A stretch of 37,153 nt of DNA from Alphaproteobacteria bacterium. GTDB lineage: Bacteria; Pseudomonadota; Alphaproteobacteria; MPNO01; VGEU01. Below, in pieces: positions 13,192 to 28,335 of the stretch (positions are counted from its first letter, which is position 1; each line of letters starts with the position of its first letter). Below the pieces are notes generated by a model. It saw nothing but the letters and a program-made list of their open reading frames with translations, was not told the DNA's origin and made no database searches. Made by a program: the position numbers and the translations under genes. Location of the stretch: positions 1 to 37,153 of the forward strand of contig VGEU01000023.1 of assembly GCA_016869145.1 (NCBI GenBank). The letters run 5' to 3'.

Positions 13192-14163
13192 ATGGCCCAG
13201 ACCCATCACACCCGCCTCTTGATCCTCGGATCGGGCCCGGCCGGCTACACGGCCGCGATCTATGCGGCACGCGCGGCGCTGCAGCCGATGCTGGTCACCG
13301 GCATGGATGTCGGCGGCCAGATGAGCATCACCACCGACGTCGAGAACTATCCCGGCTTCGCCGATGTGATCCAGGGCCCGTGGCTGATGGAGCAGATGCG
13401 CGCCCAGGCCGCGCATGTCGGCACGCGTCTCCTCAACGACCTCGTCGTCGCGGTCGACCTGTCGGCGCGGCCGTTCCGCCTCGTCGGCGACAGCGGCGAC
13501 ACCTATCTCGCCGATGCGCTCATCGTCGCGACGGGCGCCCAGGCGCGCTGGCTCGGCATCGCGAGCGAACAGAGGTTCAAGGGGTTCGGCGTGTCCGCCT
13601 GCGCCACCTGCGACGGGTTCTTCTTCCGCGGCAAGGAGGTCGCCGTCGTCGGCGGCGGCAACACCGCGGTCGAGGAGGCGCTCTATCTCACCCACCACGC
13701 GACCAAGGTGACGCTGATCCACCGCCGCGACACGCTCCGCGCCGAGAAGATCATGCAGGACCGGCTGTTCCGGAACCCGAAGATCGCGCTGATGTGGGAG
13801 AGCGTCGTCGAGGAGATCACCGGCACCGATGCGCCGCCGTCGGTGACCGGGCTCCGCGTCCGCAACGTCAAGACCGGCGCGGTCGCGCCGATCGCCGTCG
13901 ACGGTCTCTTCGTCGCCATCGGCCACGTGCCGGCGACCGCGATCTTCGTCGGCCAGCTCGACATGGACTCCGACGGCTATGTCCTGACCCGACCCGGCAG
14001 CACGACGACGAACATCCCGGGCGTGTTCGCCGCCGGCGACGTTCAGGACAAGATCTTCCGTCAGGCCGTCACCGCGGCGGGATCGGGCTGCATGGCGGCG
14101 CTCGAGGCCGAGAAGTTCCTCGCCGGTCACGCCGACCACGCGCTGTCCTCGGCGGCACAATAG
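13192..14163 (+). CDS. trxB: Thioredoxin reductase
   Basis: TrxB passes electrons from NADPH via FAD and a redox disulphide to thioredoxin. The 323-residue length is standard. The FAD-binding motif GSGPAG is at 13-18, and the redox centre Cys137-Ala-Thr-Cys140-Asp141 is complete. The NADPH site is GGGNTA at 154-159, with the NADPH-specific HRRD at 177-180. The C-terminal FAD motif is GVFAAGDVQDK. It starts 51 bp after the previous gene and is followed by a LysR-family gene after 49 bp (25 bp to an earlier in-frame ATG), an arrangement conserved in many alphaproteobacteria (trxB-lsrB). Confidence 0.97.
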   Translation: MAQTHHTRLLILGSGPAGYTAAIYAARAALQPMLVTGMDVGGQMSITTDVENYPGFADVIQGPWLMEQMRAQAAHVGTRLLNDLVVAVDLSARPFRLVGDSGDTYLADALIVATGAQARWLGIASEQRFKGFGVSACATCDGFFFRGKEVAVVGGGNTAVEEALYLTHHATKVTLIHRRDTLRAEKIMQDRLFRNPKIALMWESVVEEITGTDAPPSVTGLRVRNVKTGAVAPIAVDGLFVAIGHVPATAIFVGQLDMDSDGYVLTRPGSTTTNIPGVFAAGDVQDKIFRQAVTAAGSGCMAALEAEKFLAGHADHALSSAAQ

Positions 14164-14212
14164 GCGCGCGGCGAGCCGTATCACGGCCATGAATCTCGCG
14201 CACGCCAAGGCG

Positions 14213-15103
14213 ATGGACTGGGACAAGCTGCGGGTCTTCCACGCCGTCGCCGAGGCCGGCAGCTTCACCCATGCCGGACAGGCCCTCAACCTGTCGCAAT
14301 CCTCGGTCAGCCGGCAGATCAGCGCCCTCGAGCGCAGCCTCAACACCGCGCTCTTCCACCGCCACGCGCGCGGGCTCCGGCTCACCGAGCAGGGCGAGAC
14401 GCTCTACCGCGCCGCCCGCGAGGTGTTCGCCAAGCTCGCCATGGTCGAGATGCTGGTCGCCGAATCACGCGACCGACCCAAAGGCCCGCTCCGCATCACG
14501 ACGACCGTCGCGTTCGGCTCGATCTGGCTCACCGAGCGGATCAAGGAGTTCATCGACCGCTATCCCGACATCTCGGTCACCCTGATCGTGACCGACGAGG
14601 AGCTCGACCTGACCATGGGCCAGGCCGATGTCGGCATCCGGATGACACCGCCGCGCCAGGCGGATCTGATCCAGCGCCATCTGATCACGATGCACCACCG
14701 CGCCTTCGCCGCGCCCCAGTATCTCCGCCGCTTCGGCACGCCCAAGACGCTCGACGATCTCGACCAGCACCGCCTGATCGCCTACGACGAGACCTTCCAC
14801 CCGCCCTTCACCAACATCAATTGGCTCCTCGAGGCGCGGGCCCGGACCGGCAACCCGCGACCGCCGGTGCTCCGCGTCAACAACATCTATGCGATGTTCC
14901 GGGCGGCGGCGACCGGGCTCGGCATCGCGCCGCTCCCCGACTACATGGCCAAGCTCGCGACCGATCTGGAGCCGATCCTGCCCGGGCTCGAGGGCCCCGG
15001 CTTCGACGTCTACTTCGTCTATCCGGAGGAGTTCCGTCACTCGAAGCGGATCGCGGTGTTCCGCGATTTCCTGCTCGCCAAGATCGAGGAAGACCGTCGC
15101 TGA
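14213..15103 (+). CDS. LysR-type regulator, VtlR/LsrB-like
   Basis: This is a 296-residue LysR protein: a winged helix-turn-helix at residues 1-65 (MDWDKLRVFHAVAEAGSF, LSQSSVSRQISALERSL) and a periplasmic-binding-protein-like effector domain from about 90. The MDWDKLRVFHA start and the location right after trxB match, from memory, the VtlR (Brucella) and LsrB (Sinorhizobium) group. That group controls redox or envelope functions and AbcR small RNAs. The ATG at 14213 matches the family start; an in-frame ATG at 14189 adds eight residues, and neither has a strong Shine-Dalgarno. A structured small RNA gene lies immediately downstream, as vtlR lies next to abcR2 in Brucella. Orthology is inferred from synteny and the N-terminus. 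Confidence 0.85.
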   Translation: MDWDKLRVFHAVAEAGSFTHAGQALNLSQSSVSRQISALERSLNTALFHRHARGLRLTEQGETLYRAAREVFAKLAMVEMLVAESRDRPKGPLRITTTVAFGSIWLTERIKEFIDRYPDISVTLIVTDEELDLTMGQADVGIRMTPPRQADLIQRHLITMHHRAFAAPQYLRRFGTPKTLDDLDQHRLIAYDETFHPPFTNINWLLEARARTGNPRPPVLRVNNIYAMFRAAATGLGIAPLPDYMAKLATDLEPILPGLEGPGFDVYFVYPEEFRHSKRIAVFRDFLLAKIEEDRR

Positions 15104-15194
15104 CGGCGCCCGCGGGCATGCACCGAGCGCATAACAGGGTTGCTCCGATTGGGGTGGATTACCCACGCTGCAGAGCCTATGTAATGAGACGTTG

Positions 15195-15208
15195 TTGCTG
15201 CAACGCAA
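15195..15208 (+). promoter_or_regulatory. Candidate LysR-type box upstream of the small RNA
   Basis: TTGC-N6-GCAA has dyad symmetry and contains the T-N11-A spacing of LysR-family sites. A second, tighter dyad TTGC-AAAC-GCAA lies at 15214-15225. Both fall in the only AT-richer part of the spacer after lysR and precede the folded RNA. No convincing -35/-10 pair was found, which is usual for activator-dependent promoters. Binding by the adjacent LysR protein is an inference. Confidence 0.4.
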
Positions 15209-15228
15209 CATCATTGCAAACGCAAGTT

Positions 15229-15368
15229 TCGCCGGCTCGGGCCGAGGCAGCCCCGGTTGGCGTTCAGGTTCCGGACGCAAGGTCCGGAAGGGGTCTTCGG
15301 ACCCTACGTCTCCCAGACGTGAAGCCTCCCTGTTGACTGGCCGGACCCCTCGGGGTCCGGCTTTTTTT
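15229..15368 (+). ncRNA. Structured small RNA with intrinsic terminator, AbcR-like by position and motif
   Basis: The lysR-msrP spacer holds a run of perfect hairpins on the plus strand. They are TTCCGGAC/GTCCGGAA with loop GCAAG (15269-15289), GGGTC-TTCG-GACCC with a UUCG tetraloop (15291-15304), ACGTCT-CCC-AGACGT (15306-15320), and a terminator hairpin with seven Ts. Between the third hairpin and the terminator lies an unpaired CCUCCCU, an anti-Shine-Dalgarno sequence, and CUCCC also occurs in the third loop. No protein frame of quality crosses it. The location beside a trxB-linked LysR gene recalls AbcR/alpha-r15 RNAs, which are about 115 nt long and use CUCCC motifs to block ribosome sites. 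The 5-prime end is not determinable; 15229 is a guess and the true start may be nearer 15250. Existence of an RNA gene is well supported; the AbcR identity is inference. Confidence 0.65.
15340..15368 (+). terminator. Strong Rho-independent terminator of the small RNA
   Basis: CCGGACCCC and GGGGTCCGG form a perfect 9-bp stem (10 with the flanking G-C pair) around a 2-nt loop, followed at once by C and seven Ts (15362-15368). This is the best intrinsic terminator in the window and sets the direction of the RNA as plus. The minus strand has no T-run on the other side. Confidence 0.9.
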
Positions 15369-15519
15369 GCGCCTGCTCAGGGGCCGCCGCAACGGCCGAA
15401 AGATGCCTGGGACCCTCAAGAACCTTTCGGACGGTTGCATAGGTCGGGGCGCCCAGCCATCGGGCGTCACCGCGGCGGTCCGGCTCCGTTCTTGTCCCGC
15501 CGCCGTGGCGCGGGCGGCC

Positions 15520-16503
15520 CTACAGGAACAGCCGCTCGCCCTTCATGTCCTTGTAGAGATGGGCGACGAACTCGGCATAGCCATTATAGAGAAGCGTCGG
15601 CGCGCGTTTATCGGAGCCGAGCGGCTTCTCGCTCGCCTGGCTCCAGCGGGGATGGGCGACCTCCGGGTTCACGTTGGCCCAGAAGCCGTACTCGCTGCCT
15701 TGAACGACCTCCCAAAAGGACTTCGGCCGCTGGTCGGTGAAGGTGAACCGGACGATCGACTTGATCGACTTGAAGCCGTATTTCCACGGCACCGCGAGGC
15801 GGAGCGGCGCGCCGTTCTGCCGCGGGATCGGCTTGCCGTAGAGACCGGTCGCTATGAAGGCGAGCTCGTTGGTCGCCTCCTCGATGGTAAGACCCTCGAC
15901 ATAGGGCCAGGGATACCAGAACTGCTTCTGGCCCGGGGCCACGTCGCGGTTCTGGAACGTCGTCATCGCGATGTATTTGGCGCCCGCCTTCGGTTGCGCG
16001 AGATCGACCAGCGCCTTCATCGGAAAGCCGCCCCACGGGACCGCCATCGACCACGCCTCGACGCAGCGCATCCGATAGAGCCGCTCCTCGAGCGGCATCC
16101 GCTTCAGAAGCGTGTCGATATCGATCGTCTGCTCCTTCTCGACCATGCCGTCGAGCGTGACGGTCCAGGGCCGGATCGGGAGCTTCTGCGCCGCCTTGGC
16201 GATCTGCTTGTGCGAGCCGAACTCATAGAAGTTGTTGTAGGTGGTCGCGAGGCGCTCCTCGGTGATCGGCCGGTCGAGCGTGTATTTGGGGTTGCGCTGC
16301 AACGGGTAGAGGCCCGCGCTGGGATCGGGATCGCCCTGGGCGAGTGCATCGTCGGGACCATACGTTCCGATGAGAGCGGTGCCGCCGAGCAGCATCGGGC
16401 CCGCGGCGAGCCCCTTCAGGAGGTGACGACGGTTCAACACCAGGTGCTCCGGTGTCGCCATCCGCTCCGGCAGCTCCCACCCGCGTTTCGTTCTCGTCAG
16501 CAT
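15520..16503 (-). CDS. msrP: Protein-methionine-sulfoxide reductase catalytic subunit MsrP
   Basis: MsrP (YedY) is a periplasmic molybdopterin enzyme that repairs oxidised methionines in envelope proteins. The 327 residues begin with a twin-arginine signal: Arg25-Arg26 in NRRHLLKG, a hydrophobic stretch to about residue 48, and a probable cleavage site ALA|Q at 55/56. The sulfite-oxidase-like fold follows, with the molybdenum-ligating Cys147 in MRCVEAWSM. The C-terminal WSQASEKPLG and NGYAEFVAHLY motifs are family hallmarks. The membrane heme partner msrQ, often downstream, is absent: beyond the stop are only intergenic sequence and the convergent small RNA. Cofactor genes mobB-moeA-moaDE lie about 10 kb away. 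An in-frame ATG at 16461 is an alternative start. Confidence 0.95.
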   Translation of the reverse strand: MLTRTKRGWELPERMATPEHLVLNRRHLLKGLAAGPMLLGGTALIGTYGPDDALAQGDPDPSAGLYPLQRNPKYTLDRPITEERLATTYNNFYEFGSHKQIAKAAQKLPIRPWTVTLDGMVEKEQTIDIDTLLKRMPLEERLYRMRCVEAWSMAVPWGGFPMKALVDLAQPKAGAKYIAMTTFQNRDVAPGQKQFWYPWPYVEGLTIEEATNELAFIATGLYGKPIPRQNGAPLRLAVPWKYGFKSIKSIVRFTFTDQRPKSFWEVVQGSEYGFWANVNPEVAHPRWSQASEKPLGSDKRAPTLLYNGYAEFVAHLYKDMKGERLFL

Positions 16504-16802: not shown

Positions 16803-18848
16803 TCACGCGTGCGCGACCGCGGCCTTCTCCTTCTGGCTCTGGATCACCTGGTCGGCGAGCCGCCCGGTGAGCTCCTGGAGATGGTCGAACGTCGCGTGGA
16901 ACGTGCCGACGCCCTGCGTCAACGACCGGAGCTCGACGATGAGATCATGGATCTCGGATTGCGGCATGTGCGCCTGCACGGTGTCCCAACCCGACCAGCC
17001 CTCACGCGGCACGTAGCCGAGGATCTGTCCGCGCCGCGTGCTGATCAGGCTGTGCACCTTGTTGGTGAAGTCGTTCGGCACGTCGATTTCGACCTTGACG
17101 ATCGGCTCGAGCAGCACCGGTTCACATTTCGGCATGCCCTCGCTCATGGCGACGCGCGCCGCGAGCTTGAACGACATTTCGTTGCTGTCGACCGTGTGAT
17201 ATTGGCCGTCGGTCAGGGTGACGGCGACATCGACGACGGGAAATCCGAGCGGCCCGGCATCGAGGAACTCACGCACCCCCGCCTCGACCGCCGGGATGAA
17301 GTTGCGCGGCACCGACCCGCCGACGACCTTCTCGTTGAACTGGAACCCGCCGCCGCGCGGCACCGGCTTGATGTCGATGTGGACGTCACCGAACATGCCG
17401 TGACCGCCGGTCTGGCGCTTGAACCGGCCGTGCTGTGAGACCGGCTTTCGGATCGTCTCCTTGTAGGGCACCGACGGCCGCGCCGCCTTGGCCGAGACGT
17501 TGTAGCGGTTCCTCAACTTGTCGAGCGCGATCTGGAGATGGATCTCACCCTGGCCGCGGAGGAGGAGCTCGCGCGTCTCGGCGCTCTGGAGATAGGAGAC
17601 CGACGGATCCTCCTCGCCGAGCCGCTGCAAGGCGCCGGTGAGCTTCACTTCGTCGGCGCGGTTCTCCGGGACGATCGCGAGCGTGAACACGGGCGTGAGT
17701 GGCGCCGGCCATGACGAGACGTCGGCCGGCGGCTTGCCCGAGGCGGTGAGGATCGCGCCGGTCTTGACCTCGTCCATGCGCCCGAGCGCGACGATATCGC
17801 CGGCGACGGTCTTGGCGAGTTTCTTGACCTGGCCGCCCAACATCGACAGAAGCGCGCCGATTCGCTTGTCGCCGAGGGTCGCGCCGTCGGCGATCGGCCC
17901 GCGCCAGACCCGCGCCACCGAGAGCTTGCCCGTGTGCGAGGCGTGAAAGGTCTTGAACACCTGGACCAGCGGCTCGCCGGTCGCGGCGATGCCGTGGCGT
18001 TCGGCTGTGACGGAGGCCGGCGGCACCTCGTGGCGGAGAAGCTTGAGAAGACGGCGGACGCCATTGTCGTGCTCGGCGGCGCCGAACATGACCGGAATGA
18101 TGAGGCCCTGGGCGAGGTCCTTGCTGAGCTGTTCGTAGATCTCGGCCGGCGGCGGGACCGCCTCCTCGAGCAGCTTCTCGAGCAGCTGGTCGTCGAAGTC
18201 GGCGAGCGATTCGAGCAGTTTCTGGCGCGCCTCGCGCTCCTCGCCGGTGATCGATTCCGGTATCGAGATGAGATCGGAGGCTTGGCCCTGCTTGTAGCGA
18301 TAGGCGCGCTCGCTGACGAGATCGACATAGCCGGTGAGCTTGTCGCCGTCGCGGATCGGCACCTGGCGGAGGACGAGCGGCCGCGACGAGATCGCCTGGA
18401 TCGATTCGAGGACGTCGCGCACCGACTGCGCAGCGACATCCATCTTGTTGACGAAGAGAACGTAGGGGATCTCGCGATCGTCGAGATATTTGAGGAGCGG
18501 GGCCAGCGTCAGCGCGCGTTCGGTCGACGGCTCGTAGACGACGACGGCGCAATCGACGACGGCGAGCGCATTCACCGTCTCCTGGATCAGCTCGATCGAG
18601 CCCGGGCAGTCGATGAAGGTCCACTTGTCGCCGAGATACTCGGTCGTCCCGACATTGAGCTCGACGCTCATCTTGCGCGCCCGCGACTCGACCGAGGCAT
18701 CGCCGACCGTATTGCCGTCCTTCATCGTCCCCTTGCGCGTCGTCGCGCCGGTGATCGAGAGGATGCTCTCGAGAAGGGTCGTCTTACCGCTCAGATAGGG
18801 CCCGACCAGTGCAGCGCACCGCGGGCCCGGATTTCCATTCCGGCTCAT
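16803..18848 (-). CDS. Elongation factor G-like GTPase (EF-G paralogue, non-canonical G domain)
   Basis: This 681-residue protein has the five-domain layout of EF-G but is not the main translocase. The P-loop is GPYLSGKTT (16-24) instead of the usual GHVDAGKTT. The switch I effector motif RGITI is replaced by RARKMSVELN. The G3 motif is DCPGS (80-84) where EF-G has DTPGH, so the catalytic histidine is a serine. The NKMD guanine motif (134-137) is intact. Domains II to V follow, with SVPRNFIPAVEAGVREF and SEGMPKCEPVLLEPIV in domains IV and V. I recall the same DCPGS form in alphaproteobacterial EF-G-like proteins, so it is a family trait, not damage. The ATG at 18848 has AGGGAGA about 9 nt upstream; the in-frame alternative at 18872 adds eight residues. 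Function is unknown; ribosome binding is likely. Confidence 0.88.
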   Translation of the reverse strand: MSRNGNPGPRCAALVGPYLSGKTTLLESILSITGATTRKGTMKDGNTVGDASVESRARKMSVELNVGTTEYLGDKWTFIDCPGSIELIQETVNALAVVDCAVVVYEPSTERALTLAPLLKYLDDREIPYVLFVNKMDVAAQSVRDVLESIQAISSRPLVLRQVPIRDGDKLTGYVDLVSERAYRYKQGQASDLISIPESITGEEREARQKLLESLADFDDQLLEKLLEEAVPPPAEIYEQLSKDLAQGLIIPVMFGAAEHDNGVRRLLKLLRHEVPPASVTAERHGIAATGEPLVQVFKTFHASHTGKLSVARVWRGPIADGATLGDKRIGALLSMLGGQVKKLAKTVAGDIVALGRMDEVKTGAILTASGKPPADVSSWPAPLTPVFTLAIVPENRADEVKLTGALQRLGEEDPSVSYLQSAETRELLLRGQGEIHLQIALDKLRNRYNVSAKAARPSVPYKETIRKPVSQHGRFKRQTGGHGMFGDVHIDIKPVPRGGGFQFNEKVVGGSVPRNFIPAVEAGVREFLDAGPLGFPVVDVAVTLTDGQYHTVDSNEMSFKLAARVAMSEGMPKCEPVLLEPIVKVEIDVPNDFTNKVHSLISTRRGQILGYVPREGWSGWDTVQAHMPQSEIHDLIVELRSLTQGVGTFHATFDHLQELTGRLADQVIQSQKEKAAVAHA

Positions 18849-18943
18849 CGGTTCCGTCTCCCTAGTCCTCACGCGGCCCGTTGACGCGGCGCTCTGCGCT
18901 CTCGTCCGGCTCGCGCAGCGCGCGACCCGTCATCGGGCCTTCA

Positions 18944-27081: not shown

Positions 27082-28335
27082 ATGGCGCAGCTCTCCGACG
27101 ACTGCTTCGCGTTCGGCGGCCGGCTCGCGACCGCGGCCGAGGCGCTCGACGAGCTCGACCGCCGGCTCGGCGTGGTTGTCGACCGCGAGACCATCGCCCT
27201 CGACGCCGCGCTCGGGCGCATCCTCGCCGAGGACGTGACATCGCCGCGCGCCGTGCCGCCGCACGACAACGCCGCCGTCGACGGGTTCGCCGTCCACCAC
27301 GATGACCTCGCGCCCGATCGCGACACCCGCCTCGGGATCGTCGGACGTGCCGCGGCCGGCCATCCCTTCGCCGGGTCGCCACCGCGCGGCACGGCGGTCC
27401 GCGTCCTGACCGGCGCGCCGATGCCGCCCGGCCCCGACACCGTGTTCATGCAGGAGGACTGCCGCGTCGAGGGCGAGGACGTGATCGTTCCGCCCGGCAT
27501 CAAGAAGGGCGCCAATCGTCGCCGCGCGGGCGAGGACATCGCGTCGGGCGCGACGATCCTCGGCAGCGGTCGGCGGCTCCGCGCCCAGGATCTCGGGCTC
27601 GCCGCCTCGGTCGGACGCACGACGCTCGGCGTCCACCGTCCGCTCCGGGTCGCGGTGTTCTCGACCGGCGACGAGGTGCGAGACATCGGGGCGGAGCTGC
27701 CGGCGGGCTGCATCTTCGATGCGAACCGGCACGTCCTCCTCGGCCTCCTCCGCGCACTCGGCACCGCGGTCTCCGATCTCGGCATCGTGCCCGATCGCTA
27801 CGAGGCCGTGCACGCGGCGCTGGCGCGCGCCGCCGCCGGCCACGATCTCCTGGTCACGTCGGGGGGCATGTCGACCGGCGAGGAGGACCATGTCCGCGCC
27901 GCCGTCGCCGCGCAGGGCCATATCCATTTCTGGCGTCTCGCGATCCGCCCGGGCCGTCCGCTCGCCTTCGGCCAGATCGGGCGCGTGCCGTTCATCGGGC
28001 TGCCCGGCAACCCGGTCGCGATGATGGTGACGTTCCTCCGCTTCGCGAGGCCGGCCATCCTGCGGCTCGCCGGCGCGACCGTGACCCCGCCGATGCAGTT
28101 CCCGGTCCGCGCCCGCTTCGACTACAAGAAGAAGGCCGGGCGCCGCGAGTGGGTGCGGGTTCGCCTCGCCGCGGGCGAGGGCGGCATCCCGGAGGCGACC
28201 AAGTTCCCGCGCGACGGCGCCGGCATCCTCACCTCGATGGTCGAATCCGACGGGCTCGTCGAGCTGCCCGAGGAGTTGACTCGCGTGGAGCCCGGCACCA
28301 TCGTCAGCTATATGCCGTTCAGTGAGGTCGCGTGA
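27082..28335 (+). CDS. moeA: Molybdopterin molybdenumtransferase MoeA
   Basis: MoeA inserts molybdate into molybdopterin-AMP to complete the molybdenum cofactor. This 417-residue protein has domains I and II (LGRILAEDVTSPRAVPPHDNAAVDGFAV), the central MogA-like domain III with VFSTGDEV and LLVTSGGMSTGEEDHV, FIGLPGNPVAMMVTF as the conserved MPT-binding turn, and the C-terminal beta domain IV. The GGMSTGEEDH variant replaces the usual GGVSVGDYD but keeps the acid and glycines. Its stop shares one base with the moaD start (TGATG), so the two are coupled. MsrP, encoded elsewhere in the window, uses this cofactor class. Confidence 0.95.
   Translation: MAQLSDDCFAFGGRLATAAEALDELDRRLGVVVDRETIALDAALGRILAEDVTSPRAVPPHDNAAVDGFAVHHDDLAPDRDTRLGIVGRAAAGHPFAGSPPRGTAVRVLTGAPMPPGPDTVFMQEDCRVEGEDVIVPPGIKKGANRRRAGEDIASGATILGSGRRLRAQDLGLAASVGRTTLGVHRPLRVAVFSTGDEVRDIGAELPAGCIFDANRHVLLGLLRALGTAVSDLGIVPDRYEAVHAALARAAAGHDLLVTSGGMSTGEEDHVRAAVAAQGHIHFWRLAIRPGRPLAFGQIGRVPFIGLPGNPVAMMVTFLRFARPAILRLAGATVTPPMQFPVRARFDYKKKAGRREWVRVRLAAGEGGIPEATKFPRDGAGILTSMVESDGLVELPEELTRVEPGTIVSYMPFSEVA

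Follow-up and report, generated by a model that had tools for sequence, protein, structure and literature searches.

A conserved structured small RNA behind a LysR-type regulator gene in Alphaproteobacteria as a probable counterpart of AbcR1

Gene order at the trxB-lysR locus

The window, which is the whole 37,153-nucleotide stretch of alphaproteobacterial DNA analyzed here (contig VGEU01000023.1), carries on its plus strand a thioredoxin reductase gene, trxB (13192 to 14163; TIGR01292, 402 bits, above cutoff), followed by a lysR gene (14189 to 15103) and a predicted small RNA gene of about 180 nt (15188 to 15368). The lysR product has helix-turn-helix and substrate domains and, as an orthologue of LsrB/VtlR, groups with the Rhizobiales LysR proteins whose genes adjoin ar15, the Rfam family of the AbcR RNAs. 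The next gene, msrP (15520 to 16503, minus strand; NF003767, 415.7 bits, above cutoff), is a convergent neighbor outside the module proper that adjoins the RNA in many relatives too. Further on, an elongation factor G-like protein is encoded at 16803-18872 on the minus strand (NF009379, 1025 bits, above cutoff).

A structured small RNA beside trxB-lysR had been predicted from the sequence of the window, and the encoding of a structured RNA next to lysR is confirmed. In 82 of the 103 genomes for which both an RNA place and a LysR place were listed, the RNA lies 129 to 589 nt (median 190) downstream of the lysR orthologue on the same strand; most genomes yielded a single match at E<=1e-60 when searched for that orthologue. 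Of 58 loci with the window RNA type, 55 have trxB immediately before lysR, as do 13 of 14 ar15-type loci, where ar15-type denotes a CCCCTCT-like motif behind lysR and not always a match at the Rfam gathering score. The same slot is occupied by Rfam ar15 (AbcR) in five Rhizobiales loci, from Rhizobium, Hoeflea, Phyllobacterium, Aquibium and Pleomorphomonas, which were retrieved with the same LysR as query. Parts of this arrangement have been noted before: trxB-vtlR synteny (PMC7486931) and, in one sentence, synteny of the abcR1 region across the wider Alphaproteobacteria (PMC8844928).

Structure and conservation of the RNA

The original prediction placed the RNA at 15229-15368, a stretch that folds at -76 kcal/mol (z -3.33, with 1 of 200 shuffles as good). 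The 3' end at 15368 is retained, while the promoter evidence described below puts the 5' end probably near 15188. The likely full transcript, 15188-15369, folds at -86.6 kcal/mol (z -3.96), and none of 200 shuffles did as well. A covariance model matched 15287-15368 with 97.9 bits, the window sequence itself being among the members of the model.

The predicted fold begins with a 5' hairpin, CGUUGU-UGCU-GCAACG (15190 to 15205), which may be compared with a TTGC..GCA dyad found about 76-81 nt past the promoter box in several other lineages, followed by an imperfect hairpin (15230 to 15262). Next come three consecutive perfect hairpins, as had been predicted: H1 (15269-15289), with 8 bp in the form UUCCGGAC-GCAAG-GUCCGGAA; H2 (15290-15305), with 6 bp and a UUCG loop; and H3 (15306-15320), with 6 bp in the form ACGUCU-CCC-AGACGU. 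The loop region of H3 holds CUCCCA, its CUCCC being partly paired in the window. The unpaired CCUCCCU of the original prediction lies within a single-stranded CCUCCCUGUU (15325 to 15334) that is almost invariant in all homologues. The intrinsic terminator (15339 to 15368) ends in the seven T foreseen (15362-15368), and its stem (15339-15362) has 10 bp instead of 9. The 3' part of the RNA thus consists of an almost invariant GUCUCCCAGAC-GUGAAG-CCUCCCUGUU, then the terminator.

Homologues were present in 29 of the 41 genomes of the first search, with the order nearly always trxB - lysR - RNA, often then msrP. The core ACGUCUCCCAGACGUGAAGCCUCCCUGUU is nearly invariant, and the flanking hairpins vary in step, in a compensatory manner. 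Two covariance models were made, R1 first and then R2, which was built from 68 matches. Among 67 distinct homologues, standard pairs filled 96.7% of the pair cells and 17 of 20 pairs showed the both-sided changes that had been named as a check on the structure, in an alignment fitted to the covariance model, so that these pair statistics lean towards the structure. The covariation score was 0.533 compared to 0.136 in shuffles, with 0 of 500 shuffles reaching 0.533, and sliding the pair partners as a control gave 0.04-0.10 (0.09-0.10 for a slide of one column). Both-sided changes were seen in all five modelled pairs of H2 and all nine of the terminator, each with many pair types across homologues; H3, also a modelled helix, is nearly invariant, and its support comes mostly from conservation because it varies so little. 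Terminators of differing length caused RNAalifold to miss most of the structure when it was given a plain MAFFT alignment, which was superseded by the covariance-model alignment.

R2 matches occurred in 191 of 385 alphaproteobacterial genomes, and annotation thereby gains an RNA family carried by roughly half of the class members sampled. Named carriers of the RNA include Defluviicoccus, Thalassospira, Magnetovibrio, Kiloniella, Azospirillum, Niveispirillum, Minwuia, Reyranella, Rhodopila, Roseomonas and Belnapia. The expectation of a single copy in the genome of the window holds for the window RNA type. A second R2 match there (35.5 bits; L121:2372-2513, corresponding to contig C26 at about 27871-28012, plus strand) reaches the gathering score of BjrC1505 (RF02356, 52 bits) and so belongs to a separate family; no LysR box was found upstream of it.

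A LysR-type box and -10 element upstream of the RNA

Between lysR and the RNA lies a predicted LysR-type operator, ATGCACCGAGCGCAT (15118 to 15132), of the pattern ATGCR-N5-YGCAT, and at a fixed spacing from it a predicted -10 element, CTATGT (15177 to 15182, plus strand). From these two elements, transcription would start near 15188. The pattern occurs upstream of the RNA in 46 of 72 spacers (16.8 kb), compared to 70 occurrences in the 529 kb of all loci, and is often part of a longer dyad, AGCCATGCA-N5-TGCATGGCT. Counting from the box's first base, 32 of 43 loci have a -10-like motif at +58 to +60, and in 21 it stands at +59. The distance is +59 in the window and, counted on the sequence rows, +60 in the Rhizobiaceae loci of Hoeflea and Rhizobium (L109 and L110), the same box being found upstream of both the window RNA type and ar15. 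A generic promoter scan of the window found no standard sigma-70 promoter.

In past work, LsrB was shown to bind the abcR1 promoter and to be required for AbcR1 (PMC8844928), abcR1 was found to be activated by VtlR in Agrobacterium (PMC7486931), and a consensus for LsrB/VtlR, GCAT-N3-TG-N3-T, was published (PMC7486931, PMC8844928). The right half of the window box, GCATAACAGGGTT, has one mismatch to this consensus, which is matched exactly on the plus strand in 23 of 58 window-type spacers, compared to 0.7 expected from shuffles. At zero mismatches the extended box is unique in its own genome. The only other near-match in that genome, with one mismatch, is at C47:971-990 (L279), about 80-100 nt before an open-reading frame for a small, secreted-looking protein.

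Copies of the RNA away from lysR were also inspected for the box, which was present at both copies in L124, at one of two in L125 and in L123, and missing from L122, L126 and the other copy of L125. The box and its distribution make the tie between LysR and the RNA firmer than the neighborhood alone would. On megaplasmid pTM3 of Tistrella mobilis (L277, 122853-128915), box, RNA and msrP are found together, and trxB and lysR are absent from the 6 kb examined around this copy. The tandem copies in L128, L129 and L086 have their own box as well. Such tandems, of two or three RNA copies behind lysR, were seen in L128 and L129 (one family of the class), L086 and L034, and with a LysR-type box at most copies they are reminiscent of the tandem abcR1/abcR2.

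Comparison with AbcR and other described RNAs

In an Rfam scan of the whole window, no family reached its gathering score. The original prediction had suggested a relative of AbcR and named a covariance search with the alpha-r15 model; that model (RF02345, gathering score 40 bits) gave no match even at E<=10 in 15000-15560, and the same model does match the five Rhizobiales loci. A class-wide search with RF02345 matched nowhere, controls included, and thus says nothing on absence. The window RNA and AbcR1/AbcR2 are alike in their slot downstream of lsrB/vtlR with trxB upstream, in the LysR-type box and its distance to the -10 element, in their CUCCC motifs and in the terminator. They differ in that the window RNA has H2 with its UUCG loop, H3 with GUCUCCCAGAC, and a linker of CCUCCCUGUU leading into the terminator, whereas the aSD2 element UUCCCCUC and SL2 (GGAGGU..ACCUUC) of ar15 are not present. 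The AbcR 5' hairpin has CUCCC in its loop, as does the hairpin preceding H3 in the relatives L022 and L043; the motif occurs in L086 too, where the fold is ambiguous. R2 matches in the Rhizobiales loci were considered as a sign of body homology with ar15 and rejected, as the terminator carries these matches, and homology of the RNA bodies is not shown by these comparisons. The suggestion of an AbcR counterpart is therefore upheld for slot, LysR and box and fails for membership in ar15.

The best Rfam match to the window RNA was SorX (RF02784; 28.5 bits, E 7.9e-5, below its gathering score of 46.6), which is similar in its short hairpin, CCUCCCUGUUG and terminator. SorX derives from the ompR-1 3' UTR and acts on the mRNA of a spermidine transporter (PMC8625941), while the window RNA has a separate predicted promoter behind lysR. 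MmgR/suhB (RF00519; 25.7 bits, gathering score 41) and SorY (RF02651; 23.6 bits, sub-threshold) share the CUCCCU linker and terminator with the window RNA but belong to other loci and regulation, and the window RNA scores far below gathering with either. All of these sub-threshold matches run through hairpin, CUCCCU and terminator. BjrC1505 likewise ends in CCUCCCUGUU and a terminator, but is the separate gene and family represented by the box-less copy described above. Among the papers searched, none printed the core sequence in a relevant context and none dealt with AbcR in Rhodospirillales; in a survey of Azospirillum small RNAs, AbcR occurs only in the reference list (PMC7685610).

Anti-Shine-Dalgarno motif and predicted targets

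The unpaired CCUCCCUGUU is complementary to GGGAGG-type Shine-Dalgarno sites, and masking of such sites is, judging by the motif, the likely mode of the window RNA. Candidate targets were searched with the pattern AACAGGGAGG-N-ATG in 27 genomes, using permuted sequences as controls. Perfect 10-nt matches before ATG numbered 68 in the 27 genomes, compared to 18, 28 and 46 for permuted sequences (2.2-fold), with two genomes accounting for most of the excess. The genes behind the matches include those for TctC, DctP, TAXI, LivK-like and peptide binding proteins. However, transporter binding proteins made up about 14 of 59 matches compared to 12 of 65 in controls (p = 0.51), no enrichment, and target-specific enrichment of binding-protein genes was rejected, the permuted controls holding a like share. 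The ABC-transporter targets of the original prediction thus gained no backing from target prediction. Any such RNA would naturally target transporter mRNAs, given their strong Shine-Dalgarno sites, and effects on transport functions have been reported for AbcR1/2, SorX and SorY (PMC8844928, PMC8625941, PMC7074977). Targeting of ABC-transporter mRNAs by the window RNA is plausible.

Proposed mechanism and alternatives

Taken as a whole, we consider it quite probable that the locus encodes a LysR-activated small RNA, about 180 nt long, that acts in trans; it would be the counterpart, in position and in regulation, of Rhizobiales AbcR1, and probably an older form of it. The neighboring LysR, the LsrB/VtlR orthologue, would bind the dyad at 15118-15132 and switch on the promoter with its -10 element at 15177, and transcription would run from about 15188 to the terminator end at 15368. 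The single-stranded CCUCCCUGUU, perhaps together with the CUCCC of H3, would then pair with GGGAGG-type Shine-Dalgarno sites and block translation, probably with the involvement of Hfq. The window RNA would probably belong to a new RNA family, marked by CCUCCCUGUU, whose members work like AbcR and share a promoter with AbcR by descent.

The RNA of the window type and AbcR may also be unrelated by descent, the same promoter slot having been taken at different times by RNAs with the same mode. This is possible though doubtful: the two bodies are alike only in CUCCC motifs and a terminator, and CUCCC RNAs are numerous in Alphaproteobacteria, whereas position, box and spacing are shared by both RNA types, ar15 shares one Rfam clan with suhB (itself a weak match here), and L022 and L043 carry the AbcR-like CUCCC loop before H3. 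We regard it as unlikely that the RNA is a 3' piece of the trxB-lysR mRNA released by RNase E cleavage, in the way that SorX is released from ompR-1 mRNA in Rhodobacter. Such an origin would suit the best Rfam match being a 3'-UTR-derived RNA (PMC8625941) and the RNA following lysR closely in the same orientation, but a conserved box and -10 element at fixed spacing separate lysR from the RNA, and copies far from lysR have a box of their own. Strict membership in AbcR/ar15 is harder still to credit, since gene order and promoter box agree with it but RF02345 did not match at E<=10, UUCCCCUC and SL2 are missing and the order of hairpins differs. That the RNA is a mere structured 3' end of the trxB-lysR transcript with no function in trans is highly improbable, for although a terminator is expected behind the operon and one is found, the invariant unpaired CCUCCCUGUU and H3 serve no termination role, and copies elsewhere or in tandem come with a promoter element of their own.

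Age of the module and the LysR protein

LsrB/VtlR and AbcR are important for virulence or symbiosis in Brucella, Agrobacterium and Sinorhizobium, and to our knowledge their circuit has been discussed mainly as a Rhizobiales matter. That the lysR-small RNA module is older and wider than the Rhizobiales, as the original prediction proposed, is well supported, because the RNA holds the ar15 slot behind the same LysR-type box across much of the class; the 191 carrier genomes and the LysR tree agree with this. In the tree, the deepest split has the window RNA type on either side, with Minwuia and L022 among the rows next to the Rhizobiales clade, and the ar15-type loci all fall within one clade. 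The tree has a midpoint root, so an ancestral status of the window type is only something that we infer. Were the lysR-small RNA pair the ancestral core, the role it first played would have been set in free-living bacteria, with host association coming later.

C273 is the thiol-switch residue of A. tumefaciens LsrB and has a key role there (PMC11975290). A cysteine at this position was found in none of 58 window-type LysR proteins compared to 5 of 14 of the ar15 type, and 37 of the 58 lack any cysteine in the matched part. Because none of the 58 has that cysteine, redox sensing through C273 looks like a later addition. We lean slightly toward a broader reading, in which an undescribed, class-wide small RNA family is a conserved target of LsrB/VtlR-type LysR proteins, box and RNA travel as a cassette, the module predates the LsrB thiol switch, and AbcR is a derived form. 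The LysR protein of the window itself contains no cysteine, although its gene lies beside that for thioredoxin reductase, and is in this unlike the thiol-sensing LsrB of Agrobacterium.
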